Shown here: positions 817-61,932 of the stretch, piece by piece
Layout: each line of letters opens with the position of its first letter
How positions within the stretch are numbered: the stretch's first letter is position 1
Assembly: GCA_019550975.1 (NCBI GenBank)
Contig: SDWH01000014.1
Coordinates: 1-64,000, forward strand
DNA: 64,000 nucleotides
Source: Bacteroidales bacterium SW299
GTDB taxonomy: Bacteria; Bacteroidota; Bacteroidia; Bacteroidales; Bacteroidaceae
Direction of reading: 5' to 3'
Program-made: the position numbers and the translations under genes
Notes under the pieces: model-generated
Databases searched by the model: none
Seen by the model: only the letters and a program-made list of their open reading frames with translations
Told to the model about the DNA's origin: nothing

Positions 817-822
817 ACATTG

Positions 823-2643: not shown

Positions 2644-2682
2644 AAAATATTCTGTTTAGTGTTATAATTCTCAAAAGAAGTG

Positions 2683-2836: not shown

Positions 2837-2877
2837 TCAAAGAAAACAGATCACTAACCAATTAAAAACAGAAAATT

Positions 2878-11263: not shown

Positions 11264-12487
11264 TTATTCGCTTTCTCTTGTTACGTTAAATGTCTGCCTT
11301 TTCCCGTTGCGTTCTATTTCTAAAGTAAGACTGTTAGTCTGCTGAACATATTTCTCTAATTTCCCGTTTGATACGGACATTGCATTTACACTTACCGTTC
11401 CGTTATTAACAGCAATTACCTTATCTCCTAACATTAACCCTGATTTTTCTGCCGGTCCGTTTATTTCCAATGCAGTGATACAGATACTACCGTTACGAAT
11501 ATTAATACCTAACCCAAGTGCAGGAAATCCGTTGCAATCATTTAAAAGTGTATTAGTCCGTTGTTTGATATACAGATTTTCACCGGCAAGTATAAAATTC
11601 ATCTTGCCTGCAAAAAGATTTCCTGCGACATTTTTATTTATCGAAGGGATATAATCCAACACACAATTCGGAACAGCCACGCCATTGCAATACATTGTAA
11701 TTCCGCTGAACTCGGCAATCGTGTCTGTCAATCCCTCCCGGCGGAAATTAACATATTTTCTCGGGACATGATGCTGCCGTAATTTCTCATAAACATCTTT
11801 ATCTATTATAACATCATAATTCGAGCCTAAGTCCAACATCAAGTTCAAGCTATCTGTCTGCTCGCTGCAAAGCGGTAAATTGTTTACACCATCTTCAACT
11901 AAAGTAAATCCAGTTGTTTCTTGTTTTAGTTTTTCTTTGTTTTTAAGCGAGAATATGGTCATTTCATTATTATCCATATCGAACTTCCAAACCATATTTT
12001 CCATTATGGTACGTCCCAATACTGGACGGTAAAGCGCATTGTACATACCATTATCTTTGGGGACTGACGTGAAAATAACCTTTTCCAGTGTACAATCTCC
12101 AAGAGTGATATTATTCACTCTGTATAGTTTTGAAAAATAGACTTGTTTGTAAAAATTAAATGTCGGCATCGGTTTCCTTCTCCAATATTCCGCTCCATAC
12201 AGGTCAAGTGTTTCTTGTTTGGCAAGAGATGTAGAAGCTTGCGTGTCGAATAAAAGCGTATCAGTATATAGACCGTTTACGGTAGCGGCTACTCCAAAAT
12301 AACCGTTCGGGTCACGAATTATTTGAGAGGTTTGATAGAAAACAGAATCAACGTTTTCAACAATTTTATCTTGGTTAGCATGAAATTGGTAAGTCCAAAC
12401 GACTAAATAAACAAAGTATGCAAGAACTATAATGAGTAGGATAAGCAATACTTTAAGTGAATTACTAATAATCTTTTTAAGTTCCAT
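11264..12487 (-). CDS. membrane-anchored retropepsin-like protein with PDZ domain
   Basis: About 407 residues from the ATG at 12487; the -7 box at 12515 excludes the upstream in-frame start at 12568. One N-terminal membrane helix (LLILLIIVLAYFVYLVVW, about residues 12-29) anchors a large outer domain. Two aspartyl-protease-like half sites are visible, LLFDTQASTSL and LMLDLGSNYDVI, both departing from the canonical D-T/S-G (DTQ and DLG), so activity is doubtful. A PDZ domain ends the protein (NGPAEKSGLMLGDKVIAVNNG, then the IERNGKRQ strand). It is cargo at the left end of the element, clearly more AT-rich than the mobilization genes. Substrate unknown. Confidence 0.72.
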   Translation of the reverse strand: MELKKIISNSLKVLLILLIIVLAYFVYLVVWTYQFHANQDKIVENVDSVFYQTSQIIRDPNGYFGVAATVNGLYTDTLLFDTQASTSLAKQETLDLYGAEYWRRKPMPTFNFYKQVYFSKLYRVNNITLGDCTLEKVIFTSVPKDNGMYNALYRPVLGRTIMENMVWKFDMDNNEMTIFSLKNKEKLKQETTGFTLVEDGVNNLPLCSEQTDSLNLMLDLGSNYDVIIDKDVYEKLRQHHVPRKYVNFRREGLTDTIAEFSGITMYCNGVAVPNCVLDYIPSINKNVAGNLFAGKMNFILAGENLYIKQRTNTLLNDCNGFPALGLGINIRNGSICITALEINGPAEKSGLMLGDKVIAVNNGTVSVNAMSVSNGKLEKYVQQTNSLTLEIERNGKRQTFNVTRESE

Positions 12488-32835: not shown

Positions 32836-34332
32836 ATGAATTTCAATTTTATTTCGGCGGTTGAGGCCGCCCATGTGATAAAGAACGGGGATATTGTCGG
32901 ACTTAGCGGGTTTACTCCTGCGGGAAGTCCGAAAGCTGTGATGGCAGAGGTGGCGAAAATGGCGGAAGAAAAGCATGCGAAGGGCGAGGAGTTTCAGATA
33001 GGATTGATAACTGGAGCCTCGACGGGCGATTCGTGTGACGGGACGCTTACACGCGCCCATGCCCTTAAGTTTCGCGCTCCTTATACAACTAACGCAGATT
33101 TCCGCAAAGCGGTAAACAACGGAGAAATCAATTATACTGACATTCATCTTTCGCAAGTGGCTCAGCGTTTGCGCTCCGGCTTTCTGGGTCATGTGAACGT
33201 TGCGGTGATCGAGGCCTGCGAAATAACAGAAGACGGACGGGTATATCTGACCGCCGGTGTGGGCATCACGCCAACCATTGCGCGTTTGGCCGATAAGGTG
33301 ATTATCGAACTGAACGCGGCTCATAGCAAGAAACTTATCGGCATTCACGACCTGTATGAAATGGAGCGTCCGCCTTACCGCCGTCCGATTCCCATCGTGC
33401 GTCCGAGCGACCGTATCGGTCTGCCTTATGTCCAGTTGGATTTGAGCAAGCTGGTAGGCATCGTTGAAACGAACATGCCTGACGAGGCGCGCGGATTTCA
33501 TGAGCCGGATGCCGTTACTGAAAAGATTGGCCAGAACGTGGCCGAATTTCTGTCGGCAGACATGAAGAGAGGAATCATCCCTTCTACTTTCCTTCCTTTG
33601 CAGTCGGGAGTAGGAAATATAGCCAATGCCGTGCTGAGCGCATTGGGAAAAGACCAAAGCATTCCGCCTTTTGAAATGTATACGGAAGTGATTCAGAATT
33701 CTGTTATCAAGCTGATAAAAGAAGGCCGGGTGAAGTTCGGAAGCACCTGCTCGCTGAGTGTGACGAATGATTGTCTGGAAGATATCTACGATAATATGGA
33801 TTTCTTCCGCCATAAGCTGGTTCTCCGCCCGTCCGAAATATCCAATTGTCCGGAAGTTGTACGCCGCATCGGTGTAATAACCATGAATACGGCTATTGAG
33901 GCCGATATTTATGGCAATGTCAACTCTACGCACATTTGCGGGACGAAAATGATGAACGGTATCGGAGGCTCGGGTGATTTCACACGCAGTGCTTACATTT
34001 CTATTTTTTCTTGTCCTTCAACGGCGAAAGGCGGGTGTATCAGCTCGATTGTTCCGATGGTTTCTCATCTTGACCATAGCGAGCACTCGGTCAATGTGAT
34101 CATAACTGAACAGGGTGTGGCTGATTTGCGCGGAAAAAGTCCGATGGAACGTGCAAAAGCCATTATTGAGAATTGTGCGCATCCCGACTACAAGCAGTTG
34201 CTTTGGGATTACCTGAAGATTTCTACCAAAGGACAGACTTGCCATTGCCTGTCGGCTGCATTGGGAATGCATCAGGTGTTCCTGAAGAAAGGGGATATGC
34301 GTCTGACCGACTGGGCTGACTTCCCTGCATGA
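32836..34332 (+). CDS. acetyl-CoA hydrolase/transferase family protein (succinyl-CoA:acetate/propionate type)
   Basis: 498 residues of the CoA-transferase class that moves CoA between acetate, succinate or propionate through a glutamyl-CoA intermediate; relevant to succinate/propionate fermentation. The N-terminal half opens SAVEAAHVIKNGDIVGLSGF, the middle has PLQSGVGNIANAVLSALG (catalytic-region glycine motif), and the C-terminal half GIGGSGDFTRSAYISIF and VNVIITEQGVADLRGKSP. Length matches the cat1/AarC-like group. The exact acceptor acid is not determined by sequence. Confidence 0.93.
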   Translation: MNFNFISAVEAAHVIKNGDIVGLSGFTPAGSPKAVMAEVAKMAEEKHAKGEEFQIGLITGASTGDSCDGTLTRAHALKFRAPYTTNADFRKAVNNGEINYTDIHLSQVAQRLRSGFLGHVNVAVIEACEITEDGRVYLTAGVGITPTIARLADKVIIELNAAHSKKLIGIHDLYEMERPPYRRPIPIVRPSDRIGLPYVQLDLSKLVGIVETNMPDEARGFHEPDAVTEKIGQNVAEFLSADMKRGIIPSTFLPLQSGVGNIANAVLSALGKDQSIPPFEMYTEVIQNSVIKLIKEGRVKFGSTCSLSVTNDCLEDIYDNMDFFRHKLVLRPSEISNCPEVVRRIGVITMNTAIEADIYGNVNSTHICGTKMMNGIGGSGDFTRSAYISIFSCPSTAKGGCISSIVPMVSHLDHSEHSVNVIITEQGVADLRGKSPMERAKAIIENCAHPDYKQLLWDYLKISTKGQTCHCLSAALGMHQVFLKKGDMRLTDWADFPA

Positions 34333-34338
34333 TTTTTT

Positions 34339-34392
34339 GTTTGAACGCAGAAAGGCAAAGAATCCCGGATTCCCGTCTTTCTGCGTTCAAAC
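34339..34392. terminator. bidirectional terminator between CoA-transferase and PUL
   Basis: GTTTGAACGCAGAAAG (34339-34354) pairs perfectly over 16 bp with CTTTCTGCGTTCAAAC (34377-34392). It lies between the CoA-transferase stop and the stop of the GH2-GH53 gene and has T-runs on both sides. Confidence 0.9.
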
Positions 34393-34397
34393 AGTTT

Positions 34398-37300
34398 TCA
34401 GTTCTCTTTAAATGCTTCCATGATGGCTGTAGGACGGCCGTTTTCTGTAAAGGCTCCCAATACATACGGAGTAGGCTTGCATTCGGGTTCCCAATAAAAT
34501 ACGCCCTTGCAATGTCCGTCCGTATTGTTTTTTGCCTCCCGGATAATCCGGCTCAGTATTTCTTTTCCTTCTTCCGGTTTTGCCGATTCCATTCCGGTTT
34601 CCACTATCATTACGTCACATCCATATTTTCGGCTCACTTTGCGGATATTGTCCATGCACCGGACAATTGCTTCATCGGCCGACTTTACATGTTTGTACAT
34701 GATCGACCAGTATGGATAAAGCGACATGCCGATCATATCCCATTTTCCTCCGTTGGCCTTCAGACCGTCGAAGATGTAATTGTACAGATCGTTGTTGAAG
34801 CCGTTGTCCAGATGGACAATGGCAATGACATCAGGAAAAACAGACTTGGCGGCATCGTATCCGGCTGTAGTCAGCCCTGCATATTGTGCCATCTGTTTGC
34901 TTGCACGTCCCATTTCCCAAAGAAACCCGTCGCTGGTTTCGTTTCCTATCTGCACCCATTTGGGAGTGATGCCATTGTCTTTCAATAATTGCAGCACTTC
35001 TTTCGTATGAGAGGCGAGCGCTTTCTTCATGTCTTCGTATGAAAGTCCTTTCCATGCTTCGGGTACATTCTGTTTTGCCGGGTCGGCCCACCAGTCGCTG
35101 TAATGAAAGTCGACCATCAGATCCATTCCGTTTGCCTTGGCGCGTTTGGCCAGAACAAGCATGTCTTCTTTGCTGCTCCATCCGTCTTTCGGATTCACCC
35201 ATACGCGCAGACGGATGGCATTCAATCCCAGTTCTTTCATCAATGCTGTACATTCGCGTTCTTCTCCCTTTGAATTATAGAAACGATGTCCTTCTGATTC
35301 AAGTTGTGTAGTCCAGCTTATGTCAGCTCCTTTATAGAAAGTGTCCTCCACAATTTTCCCTGAAGAAGAGGAGGTCGTTGCGGTTGCTTGCGGGTATTCT
35401 GTCTTTATTTGGATCTTCCCGGCTTTAATGCCTTTGGCGGTTGCCTGTAGTTCCATTATACCGGCTTCCTCTTCGGCCTGCACGATGATTGTCAGCATCC
35501 CGTTGAATGCGTGCATTTGCGGGAGATGGAAAAGGTCGAGGCAAGCCGGATCACCATTGGCAGAAGCACGGTATTTTCCCTTGCCTTTTACCTTGAAACT
35601 AACCAGCCTTCCATCGGTGGGGCAGAGATTGCCGTTCTTGTCCACAATCCGCAATGTGACATATGCCAGATCTTTTCCGTCGGCTTTCAAAGTACTCCGG
35701 CTGCTTGTCAGTTCGATGTGATGAGGTTTTCCGGCCGTGCGGACTATTTTTTCGGCTACAGCCTTTCCTTTATCGTCGTAAGCCACCACTTTTACTTCTC
35801 CCGGAGTATAGGGAACGTCCATCCACATCAGGCGGTACCGGCGTTGCAGCCAGAGTGAATCTTTTCCCTGCAAAGCCTTGCTTTCCTCACGGGTGAGTTT
35901 GTGCTGTTTGCCGTAGCTTTTTCCATTGACGAAGAGTTCAGCTTCAGGATAGCTGGTGTATACAAATACAGGCGTATTTTCTCCTTCTCTTCCATGCCAG
36001 TTCCAGTGAGGCAAGACATGCAGGGTGGGCGATTCTTTATTCCAAAGACTGCGGTAAAGATAGTAGCGGTCTTTGGGCAGACTTGCCAAATCGATGATTC
36101 CGAAAAGTGAACTGTGGCTGGGCCAGGCATCGGTATCATAGGGAGAAGGCTCGCCCAGATAGTCGAATCCTGTCCATACAAATTGGCCGATGGTCCAGGG
36201 ATAGTCGTCTGCCAAGGCGAGGTCTTCATCCGGGACATTGCTCCATGAACAATGTTCCAGGTCATATCCCGTTGACTGGTGGTCGTCGTATATGGCTGTA
36301 TGTTGTTTGATAACCGGAAATTTGTATACGCCCCGTGAACTGACCGTCGAGGAAGTTTCGGATCCCAGCACCAGATTTTGGGGCAGACGGTTATAGGCTT
36401 CCTGATAGCGGTGTGCGCGGTAATTGAATCCGGGGATATCTATCATGGCAGCAAATCCATTGTCAAGCACACAGCTCACCTGATCCATTCCGCAAGTGAC
36501 AGGGCGTGTGGGATCTTCCCGATGACAGATGTCCTGCAAGAATTTGGCTACTTTGTAGCCTTCCGGACTGCATTGGGTGGGCACTTCGTTTCCGATGCTC
36601 CACATCACTACACACGGGTTGTTGCGGTAATGATGCAACATGTTGATCATGTCTTTTTCCGCCCATTCGTTGAAATAGCGGTGATAGCCATTCTCGCATT
36701 TGGCGATGTCCCATTCATCAAAAGGTTCAATCATCATCATGAATCCCATTTCGTCGCAAAGCTCAACCAGTTCGGGGGCAGGCATGTTGTGAGATGTGCG
36801 GATAGCGTCGCATCCCATATCCTTCAGCATGACAAGCTGGTGGCGCAAGGCAGAAACATTGATTGCCGCTCCCAGCGGACCCAAGTCGTGGTGATTGCAT
36901 ACCCCTTGAAACTTGCGGTGCTTTCCGTTGAGGTAGAATCCCTTGTCGGCAATAAATTCGATGGAGCGGATTCCGAAACGGGTGGCATAGCTGTCGAGCA
37001 ATGTTTCTCCTTTATAGATTTTTGAAACAGCACGATAAAGTGCAGGTGATTCGGGTGACCAGAGTTTCGGCTTTTCTACAATGAAATTCTGTGTGAAAGG
37101 TTGTCCGTGGTTGATATATCCTTTATTTTTCTTGGTAGCAACCGTTTTTCCTTCAGGAGAAATGATGTCCGTTATAACCGTCAGCTCCATGCCTTCCGCG
37201 TTTTCGATGGAAGTTTTCAGGCAAACCGAGGCGTAGTCTTCTGCAACATGAGGAGTTGTAAGCTGCGTTCCCCATACCGGCACATGGATTTTCCCGGTTG

Positions 37301-37871
37301 TTATAACGTGTACATTGCGGTAAAGTCCGGCTCCCGGGTACCAGCGTGATGATTGCGGACGGTTCTCCAGTCGGACAGCAAGCACGTTGTCTTTTCCATT
37401 CCCGTTGAGCAGAGAAGTGACATTGCAATGGAATGAGTTGTATCCCAACGGCCAGAAACAAGCCTCTTTTCCGTTTACATAGACACGCGCCTCACTCATG
37501 GCTCCGTCGAACACCAATGTGGTCTGTTTCCCTGGTTCTGAATTGAACGTTGTGCGATACCATCCCACCCCTACATACGGCAGTCCTCCCGTGCGTCCGG
37601 TTTTGACAGAAGCCTGCGTTTCGAAGTTTTGTGTTACGGCTACGTTCTGCAAGTCGTTGTTCCTGTCGAAAGGGCCGTAGATGGCCCAATCGTGAGGAAC
37701 AGTAACTTCTTCCCATTTATCATCGTTGAATCCAACGGTCTGCGCGTTCTCTATATCTCCTTTCGTGAATTTCCAGCCTTTTTCCAAAGTCTGTTCCGAG
37801 CGCTGTGCGAATGTTGTACAGACGCATCCCAGAAAAAAAACTGTCGCAAGCAGAAGTTTTTTGTGCTTCAT
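34398..37871 (-). CDS. GH2 beta-galactosidase fused to GH53 endo-galactanase
   Basis: 1157 residues with an N-terminal signal (MKHKKLLLATVFFLGCVCTT; cleavage near TFAQ, or a lipobox ending at C16). About 25-300 are the GH2 sugar-binding and immunoglobulin-like domains; about 300-610 the GH2 TIM barrel with acid/base in VVMWSIGNEVPTQ (E about 429) and nucleophile in VLGSETSSTVSSRG (E about 505); then DUF4982 and a Glyco_hydro2_C5-like domain (about 640-815). Residues about 835-1157 are a complete GH53 domain with acid/base in WVQIGNETSDG (E about 978) and nucleophile in MIVETGMES (E about 1091). It joins exo-beta-galactosidase to endo-beta-1,4-galactanase in one chain. It is the last gene of the PUL, 49 bases after the separate GH53 gene. 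Confidence 0.93.
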   Translation of the reverse strand: MKHKKLLLATVFFLGCVCTTFAQRSEQTLEKGWKFTKGDIENAQTVGFNDDKWEEVTVPHDWAIYGPFDRNNDLQNVAVTQNFETQASVKTGRTGGLPYVGVGWYRTTFNSEPGKQTTLVFDGAMSEARVYVNGKEACFWPLGYNSFHCNVTSLLNGNGKDNVLAVRLENRPQSSRWYPGAGLYRNVHVITTGKIHVPVWGTQLTTPHVAEDYASVCLKTSIENAEGMELTVITDIISPEGKTVATKKNKGYINHGQPFTQNFIVEKPKLWSPESPALYRAVSKIYKGETLLDSYATRFGIRSIEFIADKGFYLNGKHRKFQGVCNHHDLGPLGAAINVSALRHQLVMLKDMGCDAIRTSHNMPAPELVELCDEMGFMMMIEPFDEWDIAKCENGYHRYFNEWAEKDMINMLHHYRNNPCVVMWSIGNEVPTQCSPEGYKVAKFLQDICHREDPTRPVTCGMDQVSCVLDNGFAAMIDIPGFNYRAHRYQEAYNRLPQNLVLGSETSSTVSSRGVYKFPVIKQHTAIYDDHQSTGYDLEHCSWSNVPDEDLALADDYPWTIGQFVWTGFDYLGEPSPYDTDAWPSHSSLFGIIDLASLPKDRYYLYRSLWNKESPTLHVLPHWNWHGREGENTPVFVYTSYPEAELFVNGKSYGKQHKLTREESKALQGKDSLWLQRRYRLMWMDVPYTPGEVKVVAYDDKGKAVAEKIVRTAGKPHHIELTSSRSTLKADGKDLAYVTLRIVDKNGNLCPTDGRLVSFKVKGKGKYRASANGDPACLDLFHLPQMHAFNGMLTIIVQAEEEAGIMELQATAKGIKAGKIQIKTEYPQATATTSSSSGKIVEDTFYKGADISWTTQLESEGHRFYNSKGEERECTALMKELGLNAIRLRVWVNPKDGWSSKEDMLVLAKRAKANGMDLMVDFHYSDWWADPAKQNVPEAWKGLSYEDMKKALASHTKEVLQLLKDNGITPKWVQIGNETSDGFLWEMGRASKQMAQYAGLTTAGYDAAKSVFPDVIAIVHLDNGFNNDLYNYIFDGLKANGGKWDMIGMSLYPYWSIMYKHVKSADEAIVRCMDNIRKVSRKYGCDVMIVETGMESAKPEEGKEILSRIIREAKNNTDGHCKGVFYWEPECKPTPYVLGAFTENGRPTAIMEAFKEN

Positions 37872-37920: not shown

Positions 37921-39042
37921 TCAATCCCTTTTAAATGCGTTCAATGAGGTCATTGGACGTCCGTCATCATCAAACATTCCTTTGTGATAGCTTTTCCAGC
38001 CTCCATAGCATTGGGGTTCCCATGCGAATACGCCCAGACAACCTTCTACTTGTTTTGCTTTTGTGATAAAATCAGTGTAGAAAGCTTCGGCTTCTTCGTA
38101 GTTCCATGGAATGCCGATTTCGCACATCATGACTTTTGTGCTGTATTTTTCGATGAGCGCTTTCATGTTGGCGATACAGGCATCGTTCTGTTGCATCCAG
38201 GTGTTTCCGTTTTCATCAATGGGATTCCACTCCGTCAGGCCGTTTGTATCGCTTGGGTCTTCGCCCGGATAGAGCGACATGCCGATGATATCCCATTTGG
38301 CATTTGCTGCTTTCAAGGCATCAAACAGCCCGTTGTAATATTGTGGCCGGTTGCCTTTGTCAATATGGATGATAACCTGTGCATCGGGGTATACTGTCTT
38401 TACCGCATCATACCCCGCATTGATGAGTTGGGCGAAGTTGGCGGCGTTGCTATAGTCGTATTCTGTGAATCCGTCGTTCCAAAGCATACCGTAACGGGTT
38501 TCATTGCCTACCTGTACCCATTCTACATCAATGTTCTGGGCTTTCAGTGCAGACAGGACATCTGTTGTATGGTCTGCTACAGCCTGTTCCAGTTCGGTAA
38601 GCGAATAGTTTTCCCATGCCACCGGTTTCTTTTGGTCACCCGGATCCGCCCATTCGTCGCTGTAATGGAAGTCAATCATCAGGCGGTAGCCTAACTGACT
38701 TGCTCTCCACGCCTTTACCAGTACGTCCTGTTTGTTGCACCATCCGTCGGTTGGATTTACCCACACGCGCAGGCGGACGGAATTCATGCCAAGTTCGCGG
38801 AGCAGTTCCATGCATTCGCGTTCCACTCCCGTAGAGTCGTAGAATCTGCGTCCGCTGGCTTCCATCTCGGTAAGCCAGCTTATGTCAGCTCCGCGTGCGA
38901 AGCCTGTCATGTCATAACCTCCCGTCGGGTCCGTGTTTTCCGGCTGTTCCGGGAAGGTCGGGTTATCATCATCGTTGCAAGAAACGGTTGTCAAGCCGCA
39001 AAGGAGGATGAAACTCATCCACCAGGTTTTTATCTTTTTCAT
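37921..39042 (-). CDS. GH53 endo-beta-1,4-galactanase lipoprotein
   Basis: 373 residues. A lipoprotein signal ends at TTVSC, followed directly by NDDDNPT, an acidic surface-export signal, so it is probably on the cell surface. The GH53 barrel (about residues 45-370) has GADISWLTEMEASGRRFYD, the RLRVWVNPTDGW strand, acid/base in WVQVGNETRYG (E about 192) and nucleophile in MCEIGIPWN (E about 308). It is paralogous to the GH53 half of the fusion. It would cut pectic galactan outside the cell. It lies between the SusE-like and fusion genes. Confidence 0.95.
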   Translation of the reverse strand: MKKIKTWWMSFILLCGLTTVSCNDDDNPTFPEQPENTDPTGGYDMTGFARGADISWLTEMEASGRRFYDSTGVERECMELLRELGMNSVRLRVWVNPTDGWCNKQDVLVKAWRASQLGYRLMIDFHYSDEWADPGDQKKPVAWENYSLTELEQAVADHTTDVLSALKAQNIDVEWVQVGNETRYGMLWNDGFTEYDYSNAANFAQLINAGYDAVKTVYPDAQVIIHIDKGNRPQYYNGLFDALKAANAKWDIIGMSLYPGEDPSDTNGLTEWNPIDENGNTWMQQNDACIANMKALIEKYSTKVMMCEIGIPWNYEEAEAFYTDFITKAKQVEGCLGVFAWEPQCYGGWKSYHKGMFDDDGRPMTSLNAFKRD

Positions 39043-39057: not shown

Positions 39058-40785
39058 TTAGTTGTTTTCAGTATAACTCCATGTCATAGTGGTGAGATTG
39101 ACTGTAATGGTAAGATTCGGTGTTACTCCCCATTCGTATCCGTAGATCCAAAGCGGACTTCCGAAACTGTTTGCTTCGAGCGATGTGCCATTCTGATTGG
39201 TTTCGCTCCATGTCGTTCCGTAGAGTGTTCCGTCTTCGCCAACGAACACAAAGTCAAAATCATAATAGCTGTTGAACGTGCCTGTAAAGATATTTTCTGA
39301 AGTTTCTTCTAGTTCAATGACCAAGTCACTTATTGTCCATGTATCTCTGTTGAATTTGTACATTGACATGTTGCCTGTGCCGGTTCCAATCGGTTCGTAT
39401 CTCCATGTCATTTCGCTTAGGTTCACTGTGATGGAAACGGCTCCAGATCCGTCAAACCAGATATTCCATTTGTCATCGGCAGAAGAAAGTTTCGAGTTGT
39501 CGGTCGGATCGCATCCGTACCATACCCCGTTCGTTCTGTCCACTATGTTGATTTCACTGCGATATTCGCCGGAATATGTTCCGGTATAAATACCATTCGC
39601 ACTATCAGTAAGGCGAAGAGTTGTCATGAAGGTTTCGCTTCCATCATTAGAATAACATACAACATCCAAGGTTTCCGGATATGTCACAGGGATCTCTGCT
39701 CCACCTGCTTCAACCGTCACTGTCCAGTTTGTCGGGTCGGACAGATTCAGACGAATTGTACATTCTCCTGCCTGAGGAACTTCCACGTTGATGCTTCCTG
39801 CCGTTTCTGCAAGCGACAGACTTTCACCGTTCATGGCGAAAGCAATAGATGTTGATTGTCCTGAATCTGTTCCGGTAGTAGCATTGAACTGTTCCCCTTG
39901 TCCGGAAATAGTTATTGTCCGGCTTTCAGCTCCATCTGCTGTGAAGGTTGCCAGCCATTCATTGCTGCTTTCATTCAACGTCATGGCTACGTCCTCACCC
40001 GCAAGGCCGCTGACCGTGAGCGAAGAAACATGAAGCGCACTCCATTCTTCATCTTGTGTGTTGACTGTTACATAGTAACATCCGCTTGCATTGGGGTACC
40101 ACATATTCCATTGGGTAGATTCATTTGAAAGAACGAAGGGCTTTCCATCTTCACCGATGTTTCCCCAAACCATTCCGTTTCCTTCGCGCATATAGAAGTT
40201 CTCCCAAGCATTAGCCACAATAAATCCTGAGTAAATTCCGTCTGCATTTGCCGAATAAAGAGTTTCGCCAGTAGCATTTTTGCTTGCGTCCAATATGATT
40301 CCTGTATTCATATCCATTTCATACGGAGTGACATTCACTTTCACCACATTGCTGTATGCAGAAGGTATATTGGTTCCCGTTGCACTTCCCAAACGGAAAT
40401 AGATGGCATTCGACTGGCCGATTGTTGCACCTACCGTATTTGCGATTGTATTCAATTCTGCTCCTGTAAAGGCGTGTGACAAGGAAGTGGTTTCTGTTTC
40501 AGACACAGTACCGGAAAAATCTTCCGACAAAGACGCTTCAAGGCTGGCTACTACTTTGGCAGCCGTTCCTACATTTTCATCGCTGATTACGATTGTTTGG
40601 TCTGTCCATGCGAACGAGAGAACGATTTGCTGCGCAACGTCTGCGTTTAATGTCACATCGGTTGTGGATGCGATCAGTTCGTTGCCGCTCAAACTCTGCA
40701 AATAGATCTTGTCGCCGTCCTCCTCACACGATGTAAAGGAGAGCAAAGTTGCGATTACGGCAAACAGGTATTTTATCGTTTTCAT
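39058..40785 (-). CDS. SusE-like surface glycan-binding lipoprotein (DUF5114 type)
   Basis: 575 residues. The lipoprotein signal MKTIKYLFAVIATLLSFTSC is followed by EEDGDKIY, an acidic export signal. An N-terminal SusE-like domain (LNADVAQQIVLSFAWTD, about residues 45-160) is followed by several repeated beta-sandwich modules ending in a Trp-rich unit with repeated TVNLxxMTW (for example ITVNLSEMTWRYEP and ITVNLTTMTWSYTE), fitting the SusE/DUF5114 surface binding proteins. It probably holds galactan at the surface for the SusC/SusD transporter. Expressed between susD and GH53. Confidence 0.88.
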   Translation of the reverse strand: MKTIKYLFAVIATLLSFTSCEEDGDKIYLQSLSGNELIASTTDVTLNADVAQQIVLSFAWTDQTIVISDENVGTAAKVVASLEASLSEDFSGTVSETETTSLSHAFTGAELNTIANTVGATIGQSNAIYFRLGSATGTNIPSAYSNVVKVNVTPYEMDMNTGIILDASKNATGETLYSANADGIYSGFIVANAWENFYMREGNGMVWGNIGEDGKPFVLSNESTQWNMWYPNASGCYYVTVNTQDEEWSALHVSSLTVSGLAGEDVAMTLNESSNEWLATFTADGAESRTITISGQGEQFNATTGTDSGQSTSIAFAMNGESLSLAETAGSINVEVPQAGECTIRLNLSDPTNWTVTVEAGGAEIPVTYPETLDVVCYSNDGSETFMTTLRLTDSANGIYTGTYSGEYRSEINIVDRTNGVWYGCDPTDNSKLSSADDKWNIWFDGSGAVSITVNLSEMTWRYEPIGTGTGNMSMYKFNRDTWTISDLVIELEETSENIFTGTFNSYYDFDFVFVGEDGTLYGTTWSETNQNGTSLEANSFGSPLWIYGYEWGVTPNLTITVNLTTMTWSYTENN

Positions 40786-40805: not shown

Positions 40806-42386
40806 TTAATAATTTTCGTTATACAGATTCGGATTTGCCGTAAGTTCAGTCGACGGGATGGGGTAGATGTTGAATTTGCTGTCCACTGAAGTCCCGCTTG
40901 ACGAGCCTCCTTTCCATTCCCAAAGCTTATCGGCTGTAGTGAATCGGTTGAAGCGTATCAGGTCTGTACGGCGTGTGCTTTCCCAATAAAGCTCGCGGCA
41001 ACGCTCATCAAGATAGAAGTCGGTATTAAGGTCGGCTTCTGTCACGTTCTCACTGGTGTCGCCGAACGCACGTTCACGCAATTCGTTCACATATCCCATT
41101 GCTGTTGTGGCGTTTCCTCCTTGTCCGCCTCTGGCAACGGCTTCACCATACATTAAATATACGTCTGCCAGACGGAAGAGCGGATAATCAGTGTTTGCAC
41201 CGTTTTCTGCCGTATTTGATGCGGATTGTCCGTCATCGGTCAGATTGGTCCATTTCGTTACCAGCCATCCGGTTGACTGGTCGTCCATGGCCGTTACTTC
41301 CTGCGTCTGTCCTTCCTTGAAAAACATGCCTCTTCGGTCGTCGGGGTCAAACACCTCTGATGCCGTCTGACGGATTCTCATGTTTCCCCAGCCGTTGGCA
41401 GCACCATAGTCAGCCGGCTGCTGTGCGGTAGAAGTATTGCTGATTGCTCCGCACACCATATAAGTTCCCGCTCCCCATGAAACCGTAGTTGTAGCGTCAA
41501 TCGGGAGTGTGAAGATGATTTCGTTGGTGCGCAAGTGATTGTCTGCATTGAAAAGCTTGCTGTAGTCTGTTTCCAGCGAGTATCCTTGAGCTATGGCATT
41601 GTTGCAGGCCGTGATGCATTCTGTGTATTTGGCTTCGTTGATATACACTTCTGCATTCAGATACATCTTTGCCAGCAAGGTATAGGCAGCACCTTTCGAT
41701 GCACGTCCGTAGGGGCAGTCGGCTCTGTCGAGCAACAAATTCGAACCTTCAGTGAGGTCGGTAAGTTCATCCTCAATGAAGTCGAAGATCTGCTGCGCCG
41801 TATAGCGTGGAGGAATATAGCTTCCCACCGGATCATTTTCCGTAACGAAAGGAATGTTGCGGAAGAAGTCCATTGCGTGATAATAGAACAGAGCGCGGAG
41901 GAAACGGGCTTCCGCACGGTATTGGCGGATTGTGTTCTGGTCTTCCGCGCTGAACGAAGCGATGCTTTCTTCCGTAGCGTTGCGCAGGAATTCATTGCAA
42001 AGCGCGATGTTGTAATAGATGCGGTAATACATGTCCGACACCCATGAGTCGTTTGCATCCCACGAAAGGTTGTTGATGTCAGTCAGGTTCTCGCCGCTCA
42101 GCCACGTATAAGCCACTTCGTCGGTGCAGACTTCCTGCAGGTTGAAGAAGCAGCGCGAATAGTCCTGGCCGTTATTGGTAGACAAGTCTGCACTTCCGTT
42201 TTTTTCTTGTCCGTTGGTCACCATGGACGTATAAATTTTCGCCAATACCTGGAAATAGCTTTCCGGAGTGTGGTAGATGCTTTCGGAGGTGGTTTCCGTA
42301 TGCGGATACTGGTTCAAGTCGTCCACGCAAGAAGGAGTCAGTACCGCTGTGCAGCAGATCAGTGCTGTGTATAATATCCTTTTCAT
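40806..42386 (-). CDS. susD: SusD/RagB family nutrient-binding lipoprotein
   Basis: 526 residues. Signal ending at LTPSC with VDDLNQYPH after it. The helical SusD fold is clear: EARFLRALFYYHAMDFFRNIPF (about residues 144-165), a TPR-like segment with GAAYTLLAKMYLNAEVYIN, and the C-terminal YPLFRLADVYLMYGEAVARGG and FYLDERCRELYWESTRRTDLIRF. It closes the SusC barrel as the surface lid for the substrate oligosaccharide. It follows susC by 92 bases. Confidence 0.97.
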   Translation of the reverse strand: MKRILYTALICCTAVLTPSCVDDLNQYPHTETTSESIYHTPESYFQVLAKIYTSMVTNGQEKNGSADLSTNNGQDYSRCFFNLQEVCTDEVAYTWLSGENLTDINNLSWDANDSWVSDMYYRIYYNIALCNEFLRNATEESIASFSAEDQNTIRQYRAEARFLRALFYYHAMDFFRNIPFVTENDPVGSYIPPRYTAQQIFDFIEDELTDLTEGSNLLLDRADCPYGRASKGAAYTLLAKMYLNAEVYINEAKYTECITACNNAIAQGYSLETDYSKLFNADNHLRTNEIIFTLPIDATTTVSWGAGTYMVCGAISNTSTAQQPADYGAANGWGNMRIRQTASEVFDPDDRRGMFFKEGQTQEVTAMDDQSTGWLVTKWTNLTDDGQSASNTAENGANTDYPLFRLADVYLMYGEAVARGGQGGNATTAMGYVNELRERAFGDTSENVTEADLNTDFYLDERCRELYWESTRRTDLIRFNRFTTADKLWEWKGGSSSGTSVDSKFNIYPIPSTELTANPNLYNENY

Positions 42387-42478: not shown

Positions 42479-45448
42479 TTAAAAATTGAGTCCCAGATTC
42501 AATGAATAAGTCCTTGGGCGCGGATAGAACGAGTTGTCCATTCCGTTGGGCACTTCCGGGTCTACGCCGCTGTATTTGGTAATGCAGAACACATTCTGGA
42601 TCATTGCGCTGACATTAAGGCTGCATCCTTTGAATATTTCTCCGAAGTTATATCCCAAAGTCAGGTTGTCCATTTTCAGGAACGAAGCGTTTTCTACATA
42701 ATAGTCCGACAAATACTGGCGTGTCTGGAATCCCGTTTCAAGATAACTTGTCGAGAGGTTGTTCAGCTGGTAGCTGTTGTAGCTCATTGTTTCAAACGCT
42801 CCCGTGTTCATAGCCATGCCGTTGTATACGTAGTTGCCGATATTGGCGCGGAAGCTCATGCCCAGATTCCACTGTTTCCAGCGGAGCGAAGTGCTGAGTC
42901 CCATGATATAGTCGGGAGCCGGCGAATGGTAGCGGTATAAGTCGTCCGAATTAATCGTGCCGTCATTGTTGAGGTCGGCATACGCGCCTTCAATTGGCTT
43001 TCCGGTTTTTTCGTCATAGAGCTGCTTGTAGACGTAGAACATGTAAGGTTCGTAACCTTCGGTTAATGTCTGGAACTGGTAGCCGTCGATAGAAGGTCCT
43101 ACCGGTGTATTGGTTGCTTCGCCGCCCTGTACAAGCGAGAGGTTCTTTACTTTCATTTTCTGCCAGGTCATGTTGAAGCTGATGTCCCAGATCAGGTCAT
43201 CGGTCTGTATGGGAGTAGCGTTCAAGGAGAATTCGATACCTTGGCTATCCACATTTCCTACGTTGGTGGTAATGGTTTTGTTGAAGGTAGATCCTGCGGC
43301 CGCGGGAACTGTGGCGATCAGATCTTTTGTCTGGCGGGTATAATAATCGAAGCTACCGGTCAGACGGTCATCCAGAAATCCGAAATCAAATCCGACATTC
43401 CATGAAGTAGTCGTTTCCCATTTCAAGTCTGAAACGTATGCTTCCGGACGGTAAGTGTAGACAGGTGTTCCGCCTACTATTCCCTGCGCTCCGTCCTGGC
43501 TCAGCGTATAGAGCGGAAGATAGTTGTAGTTCCCGATTCCGTCTTGCTGTCCGGTGACACCGTAGCTGGCACGGAGCTTCAGGTTGCTCAGAACTTTCTG
43601 GTCTTTCATGAACTCCTCTTCGGTCAATCTCCATCCCAGGGCGACAGAGGGGAAAGTACCCCAACGTTGGTCGGGTGCGAAACGGGAAGTGGCATCACGG
43701 CGCACGGTAGCGGTCAGCATATAGCGCGAGCCGTATGAATAGTTGATACGTCCGTAGTACGAAAGCAGGACATGACGGTAATCCGTAGCTCTGTAAGTGG
43801 TCTGAACATCTCCTGCCGCATTCATGGATGCCGTGGCAGGAGAGCTTGACTTCCAGTATTGGTAATCGTATCCTGCCGTAATGTCGAAGCTGCTGTTTAT
43901 CGAGTCGAAGAACTTGTTGTAGTTGGCATAGAGGGTCAGCAGCCGGTTGATGTTTTTCTGTGGCCCGTAAGGATAATAATATCCGCCCGTTGTGTAATAT
44001 TGTGCGGCTTCCGGACTGACGTATTCAGAGCCTTTTCCTTCGGCATAGTCGTAGCCCAGTGTGGCGTGAAGCTTCAGTTCGGGAAGAAAATGCACCCGGT
44101 AGTCAATATCGAAGTTCCCGATAAAGCGCACTACCTTGCTGTGTGCGTCGCGCTGTTCCAGCAGTCCGACCGGGTTCACCAGCGCACCGTTTACCGGATT
44201 TCCGTCGCTTCCTATCGCTTCGTTGAACCCTCCGAAGGCATCATTGCCCGAATAGACGGGGATGGTGGGGTTCATGGTGGCTCCTCCCCAAATGGCTGAA
44301 GTGTTGGCAAACTGGTTTTTGTTGAGCGCTCCCTTTGCGTTGAGTGTCAGTTTCAGATGGTCATCGAAGAACGAGGGAGAGAGCGAAACGCTTCCCGTGA
44401 AACGTTCTGCGTTGTCGGTTTTCAGCAGACCGTCCTGGTTGTAGTAGCCGATGGAAACTCGGATGGGCCAGTTGGGAGCGATGCGTCCCGAAAGGCTCAG
44501 GTTGTTGTCGGTTCCGTATGCGTTGTGATAAATCTGGTCGTTCCAGTCGGTGCGTGCTGTTCCGAGTAGAGCTTGCTGGGCTGCAGAACCTTGTGTGTTG
44601 ACTACGTTGATAAACTGGTCGTAGTCGAGCATGTCGGCCAGTTTGGTTCTTGTCTGAATGGAATGGGTCGTGCTGAGCGAAATCTTCAGCTTGTCGGAGT
44701 TTCCTTTCTTGGTAGTGATGATGATGACACCGTTCGACGCGCGCGATCCGTAGATGGCGGTTGATGAAGCATCCTTCAGGATGGTCATGCTTTCGATGTC
44801 ATTCGGATTGATGAGGCTGAGGAAGTTTCCGTCGTTGCCGCTGATTCCTCCTTGTTCCAGGGGAACTCCGTCAAGCACGATGAGCGGGTCGTTGCTGGCA
44901 TTAAGCGAAGCTCCGCCACGCACGCGGATGGTGCTTCCCGATGTAGGAGAACCGCTGTTCGACATAATCTGTACGCCTGAAATTTTTCCGTTGATAAGCT
45001 GTTCGGGCGAACTGACAAGTCCTGTATTGAAGTCTTCGCTCGATACGTTGGTTACGGCACCGGTGAGGTCGCTTTTCCGTTGCGTTCCGTAGCCAATAAC
45101 CACAACGTCGCTCAGCACCTGGCTGTCGGGCTGCAGCTGCACGTTCAATACGTTGCCTTTGATGGCAATTGTTTGCGAGGCATAGCCGATATAAGAGAAC
45201 TGCAGTTCTTTCGCTCCGTCGGGTACGGTGAGCGAATAATTTCCGTCGAAGTCTGTAATGGTTCCTACGGCTGTTCCTGCTACAAGTACGTTTACGCCGA
45301 TAAGCGGCTCGTTGGTGTCATCGGTTACTTTGCCTGTAATCGTTCTGCCTCCCGACTGGGCGAAGGCGGCTGACACGCAGACCTGCCAGAGGATGCAGAA
45401 AAGCAGGAGCATCTTGGCTTTGGTCACGGTTAAAAGGTTTGTTTTCAT
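42479..45448 (-). CDS. susC: SusC/RagA family TonB-linked outer-membrane transporter
   Basis: 989 residues. Signal peptide (CILWQVCVSAAFAQ), a CarboxypepD-regulatory-like domain (TGKVTDDTNEPLIGVNVLVAG, about residues 38-120), the plug domain (DVVVIGYGTQRKSDLTGAVT, about residues 122-225, with SGSTIRVRGGASLNASNDPL), and a 22-strand barrel to the last residues LNLGLNF. It imports galacto-oligosaccharides with SusD using TonB energy. It is the first gene of the PUL; a TACTTTTG box lies 70 bases upstream. No sensor or sigma factor precedes it. Confidence 0.97.
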   Translation of the reverse strand: MKTNLLTVTKAKMLLLFCILWQVCVSAAFAQSGGRTITGKVTDDTNEPLIGVNVLVAGTAVGTITDFDGNYSLTVPDGAKELQFSYIGYASQTIAIKGNVLNVQLQPDSQVLSDVVVIGYGTQRKSDLTGAVTNVSSEDFNTGLVSSPEQLINGKISGVQIMSNSGSPTSGSTIRVRGGASLNASNDPLIVLDGVPLEQGGISGNDGNFLSLINPNDIESMTILKDASSTAIYGSRASNGVIIITTKKGNSDKLKISLSTTHSIQTRTKLADMLDYDQFINVVNTQGSAAQQALLGTARTDWNDQIYHNAYGTDNNLSLSGRIAPNWPIRVSIGYYNQDGLLKTDNAERFTGSVSLSPSFFDDHLKLTLNAKGALNKNQFANTSAIWGGATMNPTIPVYSGNDAFGGFNEAIGSDGNPVNGALVNPVGLLEQRDAHSKVVRFIGNFDIDYRVHFLPELKLHATLGYDYAEGKGSEYVSPEAAQYYTTGGYYYPYGPQKNINRLLTLYANYNKFFDSINSSFDITAGYDYQYWKSSSPATASMNAAGDVQTTYRATDYRHVLLSYYGRINYSYGSRYMLTATVRRDATSRFAPDQRWGTFPSVALGWRLTEEEFMKDQKVLSNLKLRASYGVTGQQDGIGNYNYLPLYTLSQDGAQGIVGGTPVYTYRPEAYVSDLKWETTTSWNVGFDFGFLDDRLTGSFDYYTRQTKDLIATVPAAAGSTFNKTITTNVGNVDSQGIEFSLNATPIQTDDLIWDISFNMTWQKMKVKNLSLVQGGEATNTPVGPSIDGYQFQTLTEGYEPYMFYVYKQLYDEKTGKPIEGAYADLNNDGTINSDDLYRYHSPAPDYIMGLSTSLRWKQWNLGMSFRANIGNYVYNGMAMNTGAFETMSYNSYQLNNLSTSYLETGFQTRQYLSDYYVENASFLKMDNLTLGYNFGEIFKGCSLNVSAMIQNVFCITKYSGVDPEVPNGMDNSFYPRPRTYSLNLGLNF

Positions 45449-45661: not shown

Positions 45662-45745
45662 GTCTTTAGTCTAGAGATATGCATCTCCTGTCTGAGGATA
45701 TGTATCTTTAGTCTGAAGATTTATATCTCCAGTCTGAAGATAAAG
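45662..45745. repeat. 21-bp palindromic repeat array 3 (four units)
   Basis: Units at 45662, 45683, 45704 and 45725; examples are ATCTCCTGTCTGAGGAT and ATCTCCAGTCTGAAGAT. The 21-bp period makes every frame repeat seven residues, which explains apparent small reading frames here. This copy lies between divergently transcribed susC and metK, upstream of both promoters. Confidence 0.92.
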
Positions 45746-52491: not shown

Positions 52492-55400
52492 TTACGGCTT
52501 CTTGTCCAGCTCTTTCAACAATTCGTCAACTGCGGCTTTCAGTTGCGTGTCTTCACCTGTCACTATCGTTTCGGGAGCATTCAGCACGTAAATGTCCGGT
52601 TCGAGCTGTTTGTTCTCCAGGTAGCTTCCGTCCGGCAGCTGGTAGCCTATAACAGGGATTCCGAATATTAGCGACGGGTCTTGCAGCCGTACCCAGTTGA
52701 CACTGGTCATGGTTCCCGGTACCGGTGCTCCTACCAGTTTCCCGATGTTCCGGTGTTTGTAGACCCAGGGCGTACCGTGTGCGTTCGAGTAGTTCGCTTC
52801 ACACTGCAGCATGATGGAAGGTTTGTTCCAGCGACGGCTTGGCATGTCACAGGCGGCACGTCCGCGGATTACCTGAGTCAGGTATTTTTTTCCGCTGAAC
52901 AGCACTTCAATGTCTTCATGCAGGCGTCCTCCTCCATTGAAACGCGTATCGATGACGATACCGTCGCAATTGTTGTATTTGCCCAGGATGTCTGAATATA
53001 CGGTGCGGAAACTTCCGTCGTCCATCGATTCGATATGTACATAGCCCAGCCGTCCGTTTGACCATTTTTCTACATCGGCGGCGCGCTGTTTTACCCAGCG
53101 TTCATAAAGCAGCCCGTTCATTGTTCCGCTGCTTACCGGTTTCACAACCTCGTCCCAGCGCTCCTTGGTTGCCGGATTGCAGAAAGAAACCAGTACCTTT
53201 TTCCCGGCTTTCCCGTTCAGCAGAGCTGTGCAGTCGGTTGTGCCGGTCAGTTCTTTGCCGTCTATTTTTTCAATGACAGTGCCGGCTTCCACTCGTGAAG
53301 ATTTTCTGTCGAAGGGGCCTTTCTCAATCACTTCAGCCACTTTCAGACCGTTATCCGTGTAGTTCCAGTCGTAAAGCAGGCCGAGGCTGGCTGTTTTCTC
53401 TCCTCCAGACTTGCTGTAGCGCCCTCCGGTGTGCGACACATTCAGTTCGCCCAGCCATTCGCTCAGTAGTTCTGCAAAGTCGTAATTGTTGGTGATGTGC
53501 GGAAGAAACTTGCGGTAGGTGGCCGTCATCGCTTCCCAGTCAACTCCGTGCATGTTCTCATCGTAGAATCTCTTCTTTTCCTCTTTATATACATAGTTGA
53601 ACATGAATTCCCGTTCGGCCGCCAGATCCATCTTCATTTCTGCGCGATAGCTGATCAGTTTCAGTGCATCCGAAGCCAGATCCATTTTCTGCATGGCACT
53701 TCCTCCCAGAATGAACAGGTTCTTTTCTTCCTTATCTAGCTGCATGCCTCCCCATCCGGCATTCATCTTGTGGATGAGCTTGGTGTCATGCTTGCGGAGA
53801 TTCATTTTCCACATGTCGAATCCCCCTTCGAAAGCCGACAAGTAATACAGCGACTCGCCGTCTTTGGGTATGATGGCCGAAGCGATGCTTGATGAATTTG
53901 GGGTCAGACGCACGATGCGGTCTTCGATGCCGTCGAGTTCTACCACAATGTCTTTTGTTTCTTCTTTCTTGGCTTCATCTTTCTTGCCGTCATCCTTTTT
54001 CTTCTTGTCTTGCTTCTTTTCAGCTTCTGCCTTTGCTTTTTCCTGTTCTTTTTCAAGTTCTTTCTGCAGTTCGTAGTCCTCTTTGCTCAAACGGAACTTG
54101 TCGTAGGCATCTTGATTGACAAATGCAAGCATCACGTCATCGAGCGATCCCCATGAGGCATGGTTGCGCATACCGTACCGTTCGGTTGTGAAAAGGATGG
54201 CGTTTCCTCCCATCACCCATTGGGGAGAGCCGCTGGTATATCCGCTGTTGGTGAGGTTGACCGGAGATCCTTTTCCGTCGGCACTTGCAATTGCTATATC
54301 GGTATACGGGTCGTGGTGGTTTGCGACGAATTCGAACGTGAACCATTTTCCGTCGGGCGACCAGGAGTAGCTGAACGGGCTTCCCAGGCTGTACCATGTA
54401 GACCCGTCTGTAATCTGGCGCACCTTCTTCGATTGCAGGTTAACGACTTTCAGGCGGAGCCGGTCTTCGATGAAAGCCACTTCTTTCCCGTCGGGAGAAA
54501 AAGAGGGATGCGTTCTTTCAACCGTTTTCGAAGGCAGCAGCGCTTCTTCTTCGATCAGCGTGGCGTTTGGAAAGTTGAGGTCTTCCTTGCGTGATATTCG
54601 GGCAATGTACATTTCCCAATTGCCGTTGCGCAGGCTGGAATAAACCAGTGAGCGGTTGTCGGCACCGAACGACAGCCCTTCTTCTGCTTCGGGAGTATGG
54701 GTGATCTGTTTGGTCGTTCCGTACTCGACGGAGGTAACAAACACATCTCCGCGGACGATGAACGCCACCTGCTTGCCGTCGGGCGAAACCACCGCTTCGC
54801 TGGCTCCTCTGGTGAATGTCAGTGTGGCCGGGATGTCTTCATCGTCGCGTGTAAGCGAAATGTTTACTTTTTTCGGTTTTCCTCCGGTTTGCTGTGTATA
54901 GATTTCTCCGTCATAAGTATAGCAGAGCAGGCCGTTGTTTCCGGCGGAAAGGAAACGCACCGGATTGGTTTTGAATGCGGTGAGCTGTTCTGTCTGTTGC
55001 GGATTGTCAAGAGAAGCTTTGTATACGTTGAACGAGCCTCCGTTGCGTTCGCTCAGGAAATAAAACGCATTCTCGTCGCCGGTCCATACCGGATTGCGGT
55101 CCTCTCCTGCATGGTTTGTCAGATTGGTATGCTTTCCCGTCTGGGTGTCGTACATCCAGACGTCGCGGGTGATGGACGAAGTATGGTGCTTGCGCCATTC
55201 GTCTTCGAATCCCTTCCTGTCCTGGTAAAGGAATCTGCTTCCGGCCTTGTCAAAGCAGACAAGTTCGGCTGGAGTTCCAAGAATCTGTTCTGTCTTTCCT
55301 CCCTCTGCCGGCACTTTATACAGTTCGGTCATGGCAGAGGTCGGGAAGAGAGCACTGTTGGCCGGGTCCTGTATGCTGGCTGAGAACACCACGTACTTTC

Positions 55401-55752
55401 CGTCGGGAGTGAAAGCCGAAGGAGTTTCTGCGGCCGAATTCATTGTCAGCCGTTTAGCCGACCCTCCTTCTGCCGGCATTACGAAGATGTCGGCGTTTCC
55501 GTAGCGGTCGCTTGCAAAGGCGATTTGTTTGCCGTCAGGGCTCCACACGGGAGAGGATTCATACGAATCTTGCGTTGTGAGCCGCACGGCTTCTCCGCCC
55601 GTTGCGGCTACCTTATAAATATCCCCTTTGTAACAAAACACAATATTCTTTCCGTCGGGCGAGATTCGCACGTCGCGCATCCAAAGAGGGGTGGCTGCCG
55701 TGGCTCCTGCCGTAACGGTTCCCAATACAAGGCTTAGCAATAGTTTCTTCAT
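52492..55752 (-). CDS. tricorn-like S41 protease with beta-propellers
   Basis: About 1086 residues from the ATG at 55752, which opens a signal peptide (KKLLLSLVLGTVTAGATAATP); the in-frame start at 55842 is upstream of it. Two beta-propellers of PD40/TolB type fill about residues 25-640 (SPDGKQIAFASDRYGNADIF and many similar units). A lysine/glutamate-rich linker (EKEQEKAKAEAEKKQDKKKK) sits in the second. Then come the tricorn C1 domain, a PDZ domain (GLKVAEVIEKGPFDRKSSRV) and an S41 core with VIDTRFNGGGRLHEDIEVLF and a probable nucleophile in CEANYSNAHGTPWV. A periplasmic peptidase of unknown substrate, normal in Bacteroidetes. Single gene. Confidence 0.92.
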   Translation of the reverse strand: MKKLLLSLVLGTVTAGATAATPLWMRDVRISPDGKNIVFCYKGDIYKVAATGGEAVRLTTQDSYESSPVWSPDGKQIAFASDRYGNADIFVMPAEGGSAKRLTMNSAAETPSAFTPDGKYVVFSASIQDPANSALFPTSAMTELYKVPAEGGKTEQILGTPAELVCFDKAGSRFLYQDRKGFEDEWRKHHTSSITRDVWMYDTQTGKHTNLTNHAGEDRNPVWTGDENAFYFLSERNGGSFNVYKASLDNPQQTEQLTAFKTNPVRFLSAGNNGLLCYTYDGEIYTQQTGGKPKKVNISLTRDDEDIPATLTFTRGASEAVVSPDGKQVAFIVRGDVFVTSVEYGTTKQITHTPEAEEGLSFGADNRSLVYSSLRNGNWEMYIARISRKEDLNFPNATLIEEEALLPSKTVERTHPSFSPDGKEVAFIEDRLRLKVVNLQSKKVRQITDGSTWYSLGSPFSYSWSPDGKWFTFEFVANHHDPYTDIAIASADGKGSPVNLTNSGYTSGSPQWVMGGNAILFTTERYGMRNHASWGSLDDVMLAFVNQDAYDKFRLSKEDYELQKELEKEQEKAKAEAEKKQDKKKKDDGKKDEAKKEETKDIVVELDGIEDRIVRLTPNSSSIASAIIPKDGESLYYLSAFEGGFDMWKMNLRKHDTKLIHKMNAGWGGMQLDKEEKNLFILGGSAMQKMDLASDALKLISYRAEMKMDLAAEREFMFNYVYKEEKKRFYDENMHGVDWEAMTATYRKFLPHITNNYDFAELLSEWLGELNVSHTGGRYSKSGGEKTASLGLLYDWNYTDNGLKVAEVIEKGPFDRKSSRVEAGTVIEKIDGKELTGTTDCTALLNGKAGKKVLVSFCNPATKERWDEVVKPVSSGTMNGLLYERWVKQRAADVEKWSNGRLGYVHIESMDDGSFRTVYSDILGKYNNCDGIVIDTRFNGGGRLHEDIEVLFSGKKYLTQVIRGRAACDMPSRRWNKPSIMLQCEANYSNAHGTPWVYKHRNIGKLVGAPVPGTMTSVNWVRLQDPSLIFGIPVIGYQLPDGSYLENKQLEPDIYVLNAPETIVTGEDTQLKAAVDELLKELDKKP

Positions 55753-55930
55753 TTTGTCTGATAAATTTAAATTTCCGTTTACAGCGCGGAAAGTTATCAA
55801 AAATAACCGAATCGGCAAAATCAGTTTTTGAATGTTGTGCAATTTGCCAGCTCAGGGGCAGACCGACGGGCATTGGCTGGTGACCTGCGGGCGGAAAGGA
55901 AGGTTGCGCAACAAAAAAAGTGAAGATTTA

Positions 55931-61848: not shown

Positions 61849-61932
61849 TTCTCCAGGTTAAAGATATGTATCTCCAGTCTGGAGATACATATCTTTAACC
61901 TGAAGATGCATATCTTTAGGCTGAAGACAGAA
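61849..61932. repeat. 21-bp palindromic repeat array 4 (four units)
   Basis: Units at 61849, 61870, 61891 and 61912. Unit 2 has the perfect palindrome ATCTCCAGTCTGGAGAT; others carry TTTA or TTAA changes at paired positions. It lies between the tandem genes ppx and mutS; the mutS promoter is downstream. A degenerate partial unit may precede it. Confidence 0.92.

Follow-up and report, generated by a model that had tools for sequence, protein, structure and literature searches.

A GH2-GH53 fusion protein encoded in a predicted galactan locus of a Bacteroidales genome, and related fusions in other Bacteroidota

Results

One open reading frame encodes a GH2 and a GH53 domain

The analyzed window is a stretch of 64,000 nucleotides from Bacteroidales bacterium SW299 (contig SDWH01000014.1, positions 1 to 64,000), and the gene studied here joins domains of the glycoside hydrolase families GH2 and GH53 in one chain. 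It is located at 34398..37871 on the minus strand and consists of a single frame with an ATG start, 1157 codons (1157 aa) and no internal stops. An N-terminal signal peptide (aa 1-23, ending TTFAQ before RSE; 37803..37871, minus strand) was judged by eye to be of type I, which would direct the protein to the periplasm. It is followed by a GalB-like GH2 part (aa 31-820; 35412..37781, minus strand), a linker predicted to be disordered (aa 828-842; 35346..35390, minus strand) and a GH53 part (aa 846-1155; 34407..35336, minus strand). An antisense open reading frame (ORF) at 34329-34988 on the plus strand matched no Pfam family and was taken as spurious.

Pfam profiles Glyco_hydro_2_N, Glyco_hydro_2, Glyco_hydro_2_C, DUF4982 and Glyco_hydro2_C5 were identified over aa 31-820, and the N-terminal, Ig-like and TIM-barrel domains that define GH2 all scored above cut-off and are accompanied by the acid/base and nucleophile glutamates. 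Residues 846-1133 matched GH53 (PF07745) with 272.8 bits against a curated cut-off of 24; with an E-value of 4.9e-81, a chance match is no issue. This part also has the two catalytic glutamates and the barrel fold of the family. By sequence and catalytic residues, two distinct catalytic domains are thus present in one chain, as in multicatalytic carbohydrate-active enzymes.

In an alignment of the fusion with seven fused relatives (A1, eight rows), E429 (SIGNEV; 36585-36587), E505 (GSETS; 36357-36359), E978 (IGNET; 34938-34940) and E1091 (VETG; 34599-34601) are invariant in all rows. Among the 14 fused rows of another alignment (A3), E429, E978 and E1091 are each present in every row and E505 in 12. 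A glutamate as the GH53 nucleophile is consistent with the title of the 2gft entry, which describes the B. licheniformis enzyme with a mutated nucleophile (E263A); the other catalytic roles in GH53 and GH2 are assumed from general knowledge of the families. The initial annotation had proposed that both enzymes are combined in one chain with their catalytic glutamates present, and the single frame, the Pfam domains and the alignments all agree with this.

The predicted structure contains two bodies and a disordered linker

An AlphaFold model of the fusion was based on a 42-row alignment, 14 rows of which cover the GH53 part, and had a mean predicted local distance difference test score (pLDDT) of 82.1 and a predicted template modeling score (pTM) of 0.68. 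It contains two confident bodies, whose relative orientation is not fixed by the model, and a linker (aa 828-842) with pLDDT below 50. The modeled GH53 body superimposed on the B. thetaiotaomicron galactanase 6gp5 with a Z-score of 40.9 and a root-mean-square deviation (rmsd) of 2.1 over 305 aligned residues (48% identity). For the modeled GH2 body the highest Z-score was obtained with 6b6l (Z 38.8, 692 aligned, 32% identity); the closest solved structure by sequence was BuGH2A (5t99; Z 37.0, rmsd 2.4, 727 aligned, 44% identity).

The fusion gene is the last gene of a galactan-type operon

The fusion gene is the final gene of an operon, with intergenic gaps of 15-92 bases, in which all genes are on the minus strand: a SusC-like TonB-dependent transporter (42479..45448) and a SusD-like protein (40806..42386), both identified by profile matches, a SusE-like glycan-binding protein with Pfam matches to SusE, DUF5111 and DUF5114 (39058..40785), and a separate GH53 lipoprotein of 373 aa (37921..39042). 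The signal of the latter, VSC followed by NDDD, was judged by eye to be of the surface-export type and presumably fits the Bacteroidota surface-export signal, in line with the initial annotation, which had placed a separate surface GH53 lipoprotein upstream of the fusion. The fused GH53 and the lipoprotein GH53 fall into different branches in both GH53 trees (114 and 75 rows, see below). On these sequence grounds, the usual galactan GH53 of the locus is the upstream surface-type lipoprotein, and the fused GH53 is an extra paralogue from a different GH53 branch.

The gene order SusC-SusD-SusE-like-GH53-GH2 is that of the pectic galactan polysaccharide utilization locus (PUL) type represented by BT4667-BT4673, and is also found in B. 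faecis (L083). In B. thetaiotaomicron the surface GH53 BT4668 depolymerizes galactan and the periplasmic GH2 BT4667 frees galactose (PMC8002723, PMC5238430). There, in contrast to the window, the GH2 is a separate protein, a second GH53 is not described in the available portions of these sources, and BT4673 is a hybrid two-component system (HTCS) regulator. Likewise, the pectic galactan-induced PUL NQ544_12965-12985 of Segatella copri contains a TonB-dependent transporter (TBDT), the surface glycan-binding proteins SGBP-A and SGBP-B, a GH53 and a GH2, but the two enzymes are separate members, according to the part of the source available (PMC11784079). The earlier proposal that known Bacteroides loci keep these activities apart therefore holds for BT4667 and BT4668, as far as described in PMC8002723 and PMC5238430.

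Chains with two catalytic domains are known from BoCE6-CE1, FjCE6-CE1, BeCE15A-Rex8A and F. johnsoniae ChiA, the last of which also combines exo- and endo-acting chitinase activity (available parts of PMC8417218 and PMC7110780). These belong to other families, act on other substrates and have been studied biochemically, whereas the window fusion is known from its sequence. No GH2-GH53 chain was named in the titles and abstract openings of the literature searched, a search whose scope did not extend to CAZy and PULDB; for the GH2-GH53 combination, only a bifidobacteria paper was found, which in the part available is not about a fusion. The available part of a 2025 paper on GH2 subfamilies (PMC12243196) refers GH2 multimodularity to its supplement. 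We do not claim that the architecture is unrecorded: both families, the galactan locus type and the multicatalytic enzyme class are known already, and what was not met in the literature searched is a galactan locus with GH2 and GH53 in one chain, or the repeated emergence of such a chain.

Two further features of the region were observed. Tandem 21-base palindromic units (ATCTYYAGWCTRRAGAT) are located at 45663-45742, between metK and susC, and at 61870-61886. This palindrome occurs at 29 places in the genome of the window (3 in the window), once in G047 and not in G045 and G003, and is thus a dispersed element found mostly in this one of the four genomes searched. Tricorn-like proteases (PD40, Peptidase_S41) are encoded in the window at 52492-55842 (minus strand) and in L042 at 1-3099, and such a protease adjoins the galactan locus in G016.

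Fused and unfused forms occur side by side in the genus

The genus survey covered 61 genomes of the genus of the window, probably Phocaeicola. A GH53 match was found in 30, the regions of all of which were re-called (with the window standing for its own genome, G000), and only frames that had been fetched and re-called were counted as fused. GH2-GH53 chains were identified in 9 of the 61 genomes: G000, four genomes of Bacteroides caecigallinarum (G003, G004, G005 and G012), Candidatus Phocaeicola faecipullorum (G013), an uncultured Phocaeicola metagenome-assembled genome (MAG; G045), G051, and G049, where the chain is cut by the contig end. Four further genomes have a GH2 gene followed by a separate GH53 gene (G014, G016, G047 and B. 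mediterraneensis G019), and in G014 these genes overlap by 4 bp. In the 75-row tree the separate downstream GH53 belongs to the branch of the window in G014, G019 and G047 and to another branch in G016. In a further genome (G022) the GH53 gene is split into overlapping frames (L053, 6317-7343, minus strand).

The signals of the separate downstream GH53 proteins end in Q (YGQ, YAQ or HAQ; in G014, G019 and G047 YGQ or HAQ) and show no canonical lipobox by eye, and the adjacent GH2 proteins likewise have Q-ending signals with no such lipobox. At the end of the signal peptide, A22, Q23 and R24 are invariant in all eight rows of A1; these fused chains end their signals in AQ before R, unlike the SC-NDDD of the lipoprotein GH53. 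Judged from the signal peptides, both partners of the fusion resemble enzymes of the periplasm type, and the surface GH53 is a third enzyme.

GH2-GH53 chains occur beyond the genus

Among the best 80 of a larger set of named loci retrieved with the alignment of fused chains, nine encode both domains in a single frame: L070-L075 and L107 belong to genomes already counted, and L076-L077 are Bacteroidales MAGs. SusC, SusD, SusE, GH53 and GH2 as separate genes were identified in 24 of the 71 unfused loci, some of the rest being cut by contig ends, and these 24 include Bacteroides, Dysgonomonas, Proteiniphilum, Chitinophaga and Sphingobacterium.

At the family level (399 genomes, 149 with GH53), at least three GH2-GH53 chains were present in the 20 regions examined (L152-L154), all from one genus and with another GH2 type. 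At the order level (393 genomes, 107 with GH53) at least five chains were found: each of the five newly listed candidates whose frames exceeded 1000 aa contained one, in one case contig-cut; the three that were scanned (L169, L171 and L172) pass the NCBIfam GalA cut-off. At the phylum level (296 genomes, 80 with GH53), two of the four examined candidates were GH2-GH53 chains (L183 and L184), and their GH53 domains cluster with those of the GalA type. L183 has the order SusC-SusD-SusE-GH53-fusion; its separate GH53 bears a lipoprotein-type signal, and the signal of the fusion ends in AQ.

In all re-called fused chains GH2 comes first and GH53 second. The GalA-like chains (L169-L173, L183, L184) and the L152-L154 type share this arrangement with the window but have GH2 parts of other groups and GH53 parts of other branches. 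The initial annotation could be read as hinting at a one-off, which does not fit the presence of such chains in 9 of the 61 genus-level genomes and, with other GH2 types, in further Bacteroidota lineages; the search in other species that had been proposed as a check thus gave a positive answer.

Several candidates were rejected. L185 and L186 at the phylum level were not GH2-GH53; the long frames of 1181-1234 aa in G091, G113 and G201 resolved into distinct genes for GH53 and GH2 that share a reading frame, the stop between them being read directly in G091; a 1145-aa candidate in G410 was a 366-aa GH53 by itself; and two long phylum-level frames (G957, G859) had GH53 matches below cut-off and were left out of the fused count.

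The L152-L154 chains are 1322 aa long, with roughly 200 additional residues separating the GH2 and GH53 domains. In the two that were checked, which are the two A3 rows without an aligned residue at E505, no residue aligned to the GH2 nucleophile, and their GH2 part may have lost activity or may simply have diverged. Other genera of the family have GH53 fused to esterase-type alpha/beta-hydrolase domains (L156-L158).

The chain probably arose more than once

Duplicates of records already included (13 loci) were excluded before all trees were built. A 114-row GH53 tree contained long-branch joins, among them L171 (a partial match), and was superseded by a 75-row tree from which 39 of the 114 rows had been dropped (8 long or odd rows and 31 from the surface-type GH53 clade). 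Apart from L171, no GalA-type GH53 domain was long enough for the larger tree, and these domains are absent from the smaller; six, excluding the contig-cut L173, were added to a later quick tree. The fused label takes five changes in the 75-row tree, and in none of 200 bootstrap trees does one change suffice. With the GalA-type domains, which form one clade, six changes are needed. A 97-row GH2 tree, whose depths were not used because very long branches meet in it, gave five changes, at least four of them forced by strongly supported branches. The state changes in these trees are not necessarily all gains.

A single ancient fusion in the genus was rejected by the approximately unbiased (AU) test, both for a clade of the window and G045 (p 0.00048) and for one that also includes the seven rows of the caecigallinarum group (p 1.1e-6). 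The rejection of common descent and the tree changes together suggest that the GH2-GH53 chain probably arose repeatedly. The chains of the caecigallinarum group carry a GH53 of another branch than that of the window (75-row tree), and separate GH53 members of that branch (L045, L046 and L048) carry signals that by eye are of the lipoprotein type. Linkers also differ by lineage. That of the window is TEYPQATATTSSSSGKIVED, unlike the linkers of its seven A1 relatives; the caecigallinarum group has a short acidic linker, and the linker of G045 is rich in glycine.

G045 and G047 show how one join may have been made. Their DNA is 95.4% identical over GH2 (2455 bases aligned) and over GH53 (948 bases). 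In G047 the two are separated by a stop, a spacer and a signal peptide; in G045, 103 bases with in-frame read-through lie between them. A 111-base stretch around the G045 junction folds into a strong hairpin (-59.7 kcal/mol, RNA parameters), and the linker is a dispersed CTCCCC..GGGGAGG palindromic repeat (L039, about 12093-12195). Elements with 75% identity to it were identified in G000 at C8:32566-32658 (E 4.2e-9) and C8:46066-46141 (E 5.1e-8), with partial copies at C8:46188-46220 and C1:169694-169727; by eye, the element at C8:32566 lies between an apparent stop and the following ATG. It is therefore likely that an intergenic palindromic repeat served as the join in G045, which, it should be kept in mind, is a MAG. 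The reverse course, one fusion followed by fission in G047, would require that a stop, a spacer and a G014-like signal peptide were regained. A dispersed repeat was rejected as the origin of the window's own linker, for which the best second match in G000 reached only E 1.66. The search for the window's junction sequence covered two other genomes, G045 and G047, and found it in neither.

Discussion

We consider it likely that the locus serves the utilization of pectic beta-1,4-galactan and that its last gene encodes a two-activity enzyme of the periplasm, with endo and exo action. Outside the cell, the GH53 lipoprotein would cut galactan, and SusC and SusD would take up the oligomers. Long oligomers would then be shortened in the periplasm by endo-acting cleavage through the C-terminal GH53, and the N-terminal GH2, a beta-galactosidase on a flexible tether, would remove galactose from non-reducing ends, both old and new. 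That the second GH53 looks periplasmic suggests that the imported oligomers are long enough to merit further cutting, and it is reasonable to suppose that oligomers cut by GH53 would be trimmed at once by the tethered GH2. Such a chain would have originated when adjacent periplasm-type GH2 and GH53 genes lost the stop codon, the spacer and the second signal peptide between them.

Several observations speak against this assignment. By sequence, the nearest solved relatives of the GH2 part are BuGH2A, which we take to be an enzyme of the agarose pathway, a lambda-carrageenan-active GH2 and a B. circulans beta-galactosidase. The GH2 part also narrowly misses the cut-off of the NCBIfam GalB equivalog (NF041463), with 873 against 900 bits; the GH2 of the B. 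faecis locus scores 919.7 bits. Given these relatives and the missed cut-off, the linkage specificity proposed for GH2 is drawn from synteny. Pfam scans of 18 of the window ORFs, a subset of the total, revealed no HTCS regulator. Signal types were judged by eye throughout, and the GalA-type chains L171 and L173 start with lipoprotein-like signals (ISCSEK and FSCGRK), so that not every fused chain has to be a soluble periplasmic protein.

The strongest alternative, to which we give somewhat less than an even chance, is that both activities are real and the tether brings no catalytic benefit. The join would then be a near-neutral fusion of co-exported neighbors, with no more effect than a fixed 1:1 ratio and one signal peptide fewer to make. 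The adjacency of the two genes, with the 4-bp overlap in G014, would favor such an event, as would the variation of linkers between lineages, the intergenic-type repeat that forms the G045 linker and the presence of fused and unfused states side by side in the genus. Interdomain synergy has been found in some multicatalytic enzymes and not in others (available parts of PMC8417218 and PMC7110780), and the several without intramolecular synergy (PMC8417218) are consistent with this alternative. However, the fused state was seemingly reached several times, always with GH2 first and GH53 second in re-called chains, and has been retained in the seven rows of the caecigallinarum group.

It is unlikely, though worth considering, that the fused GH53 and the surface GH53 differ in substrate, the fused one being specialized for, say, branched fragments of arabinogalactan I or for exo-type cuts, and that the chain handles side-branched oligomers instead of merely making linear ones shorter. 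Two GH53 enzymes from different branches in one locus suggest separate tasks, and the B. thetaiotaomicron GH53 cuts oligomers with a degree of polymerization (DP) of 3 to DP2 and galactose (available part of PMC5238430), but the structural match to this characterized galactanase has 48% identity and the catalytic motifs are kept. That a frameshift or an assembly join at about codon 825 had merged two genes, the outcome that would have overturned the initial annotation, is very improbable and was rejected: the exact junction was found in one of the three assemblies searched, but both domains lie in one open frame, the architecture recurs in separately assembled named genomes, and the linker stands in place of the stop, spacer and signal of the relatives, which are not simply read over.

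It can tentatively be proposed that the fusion is a convergently favored design for periplasmic galactan digestion in Bacteroidota, which would have been reached by at least three joins in one genus, one of them via the linker from a dispersed palindromic repeat, and by others across the phylum. If so, SusCD would import chains long enough to need an inner endo-acting enzyme coupled to an exo-acting one. The fused G045 and the unfused G047 form a natural pair for asking whether tethering endo- and exo-acting enzymes speeds the breakdown of imported glycans, and this pair also bears on whether Bacteroidota import long oligomers.

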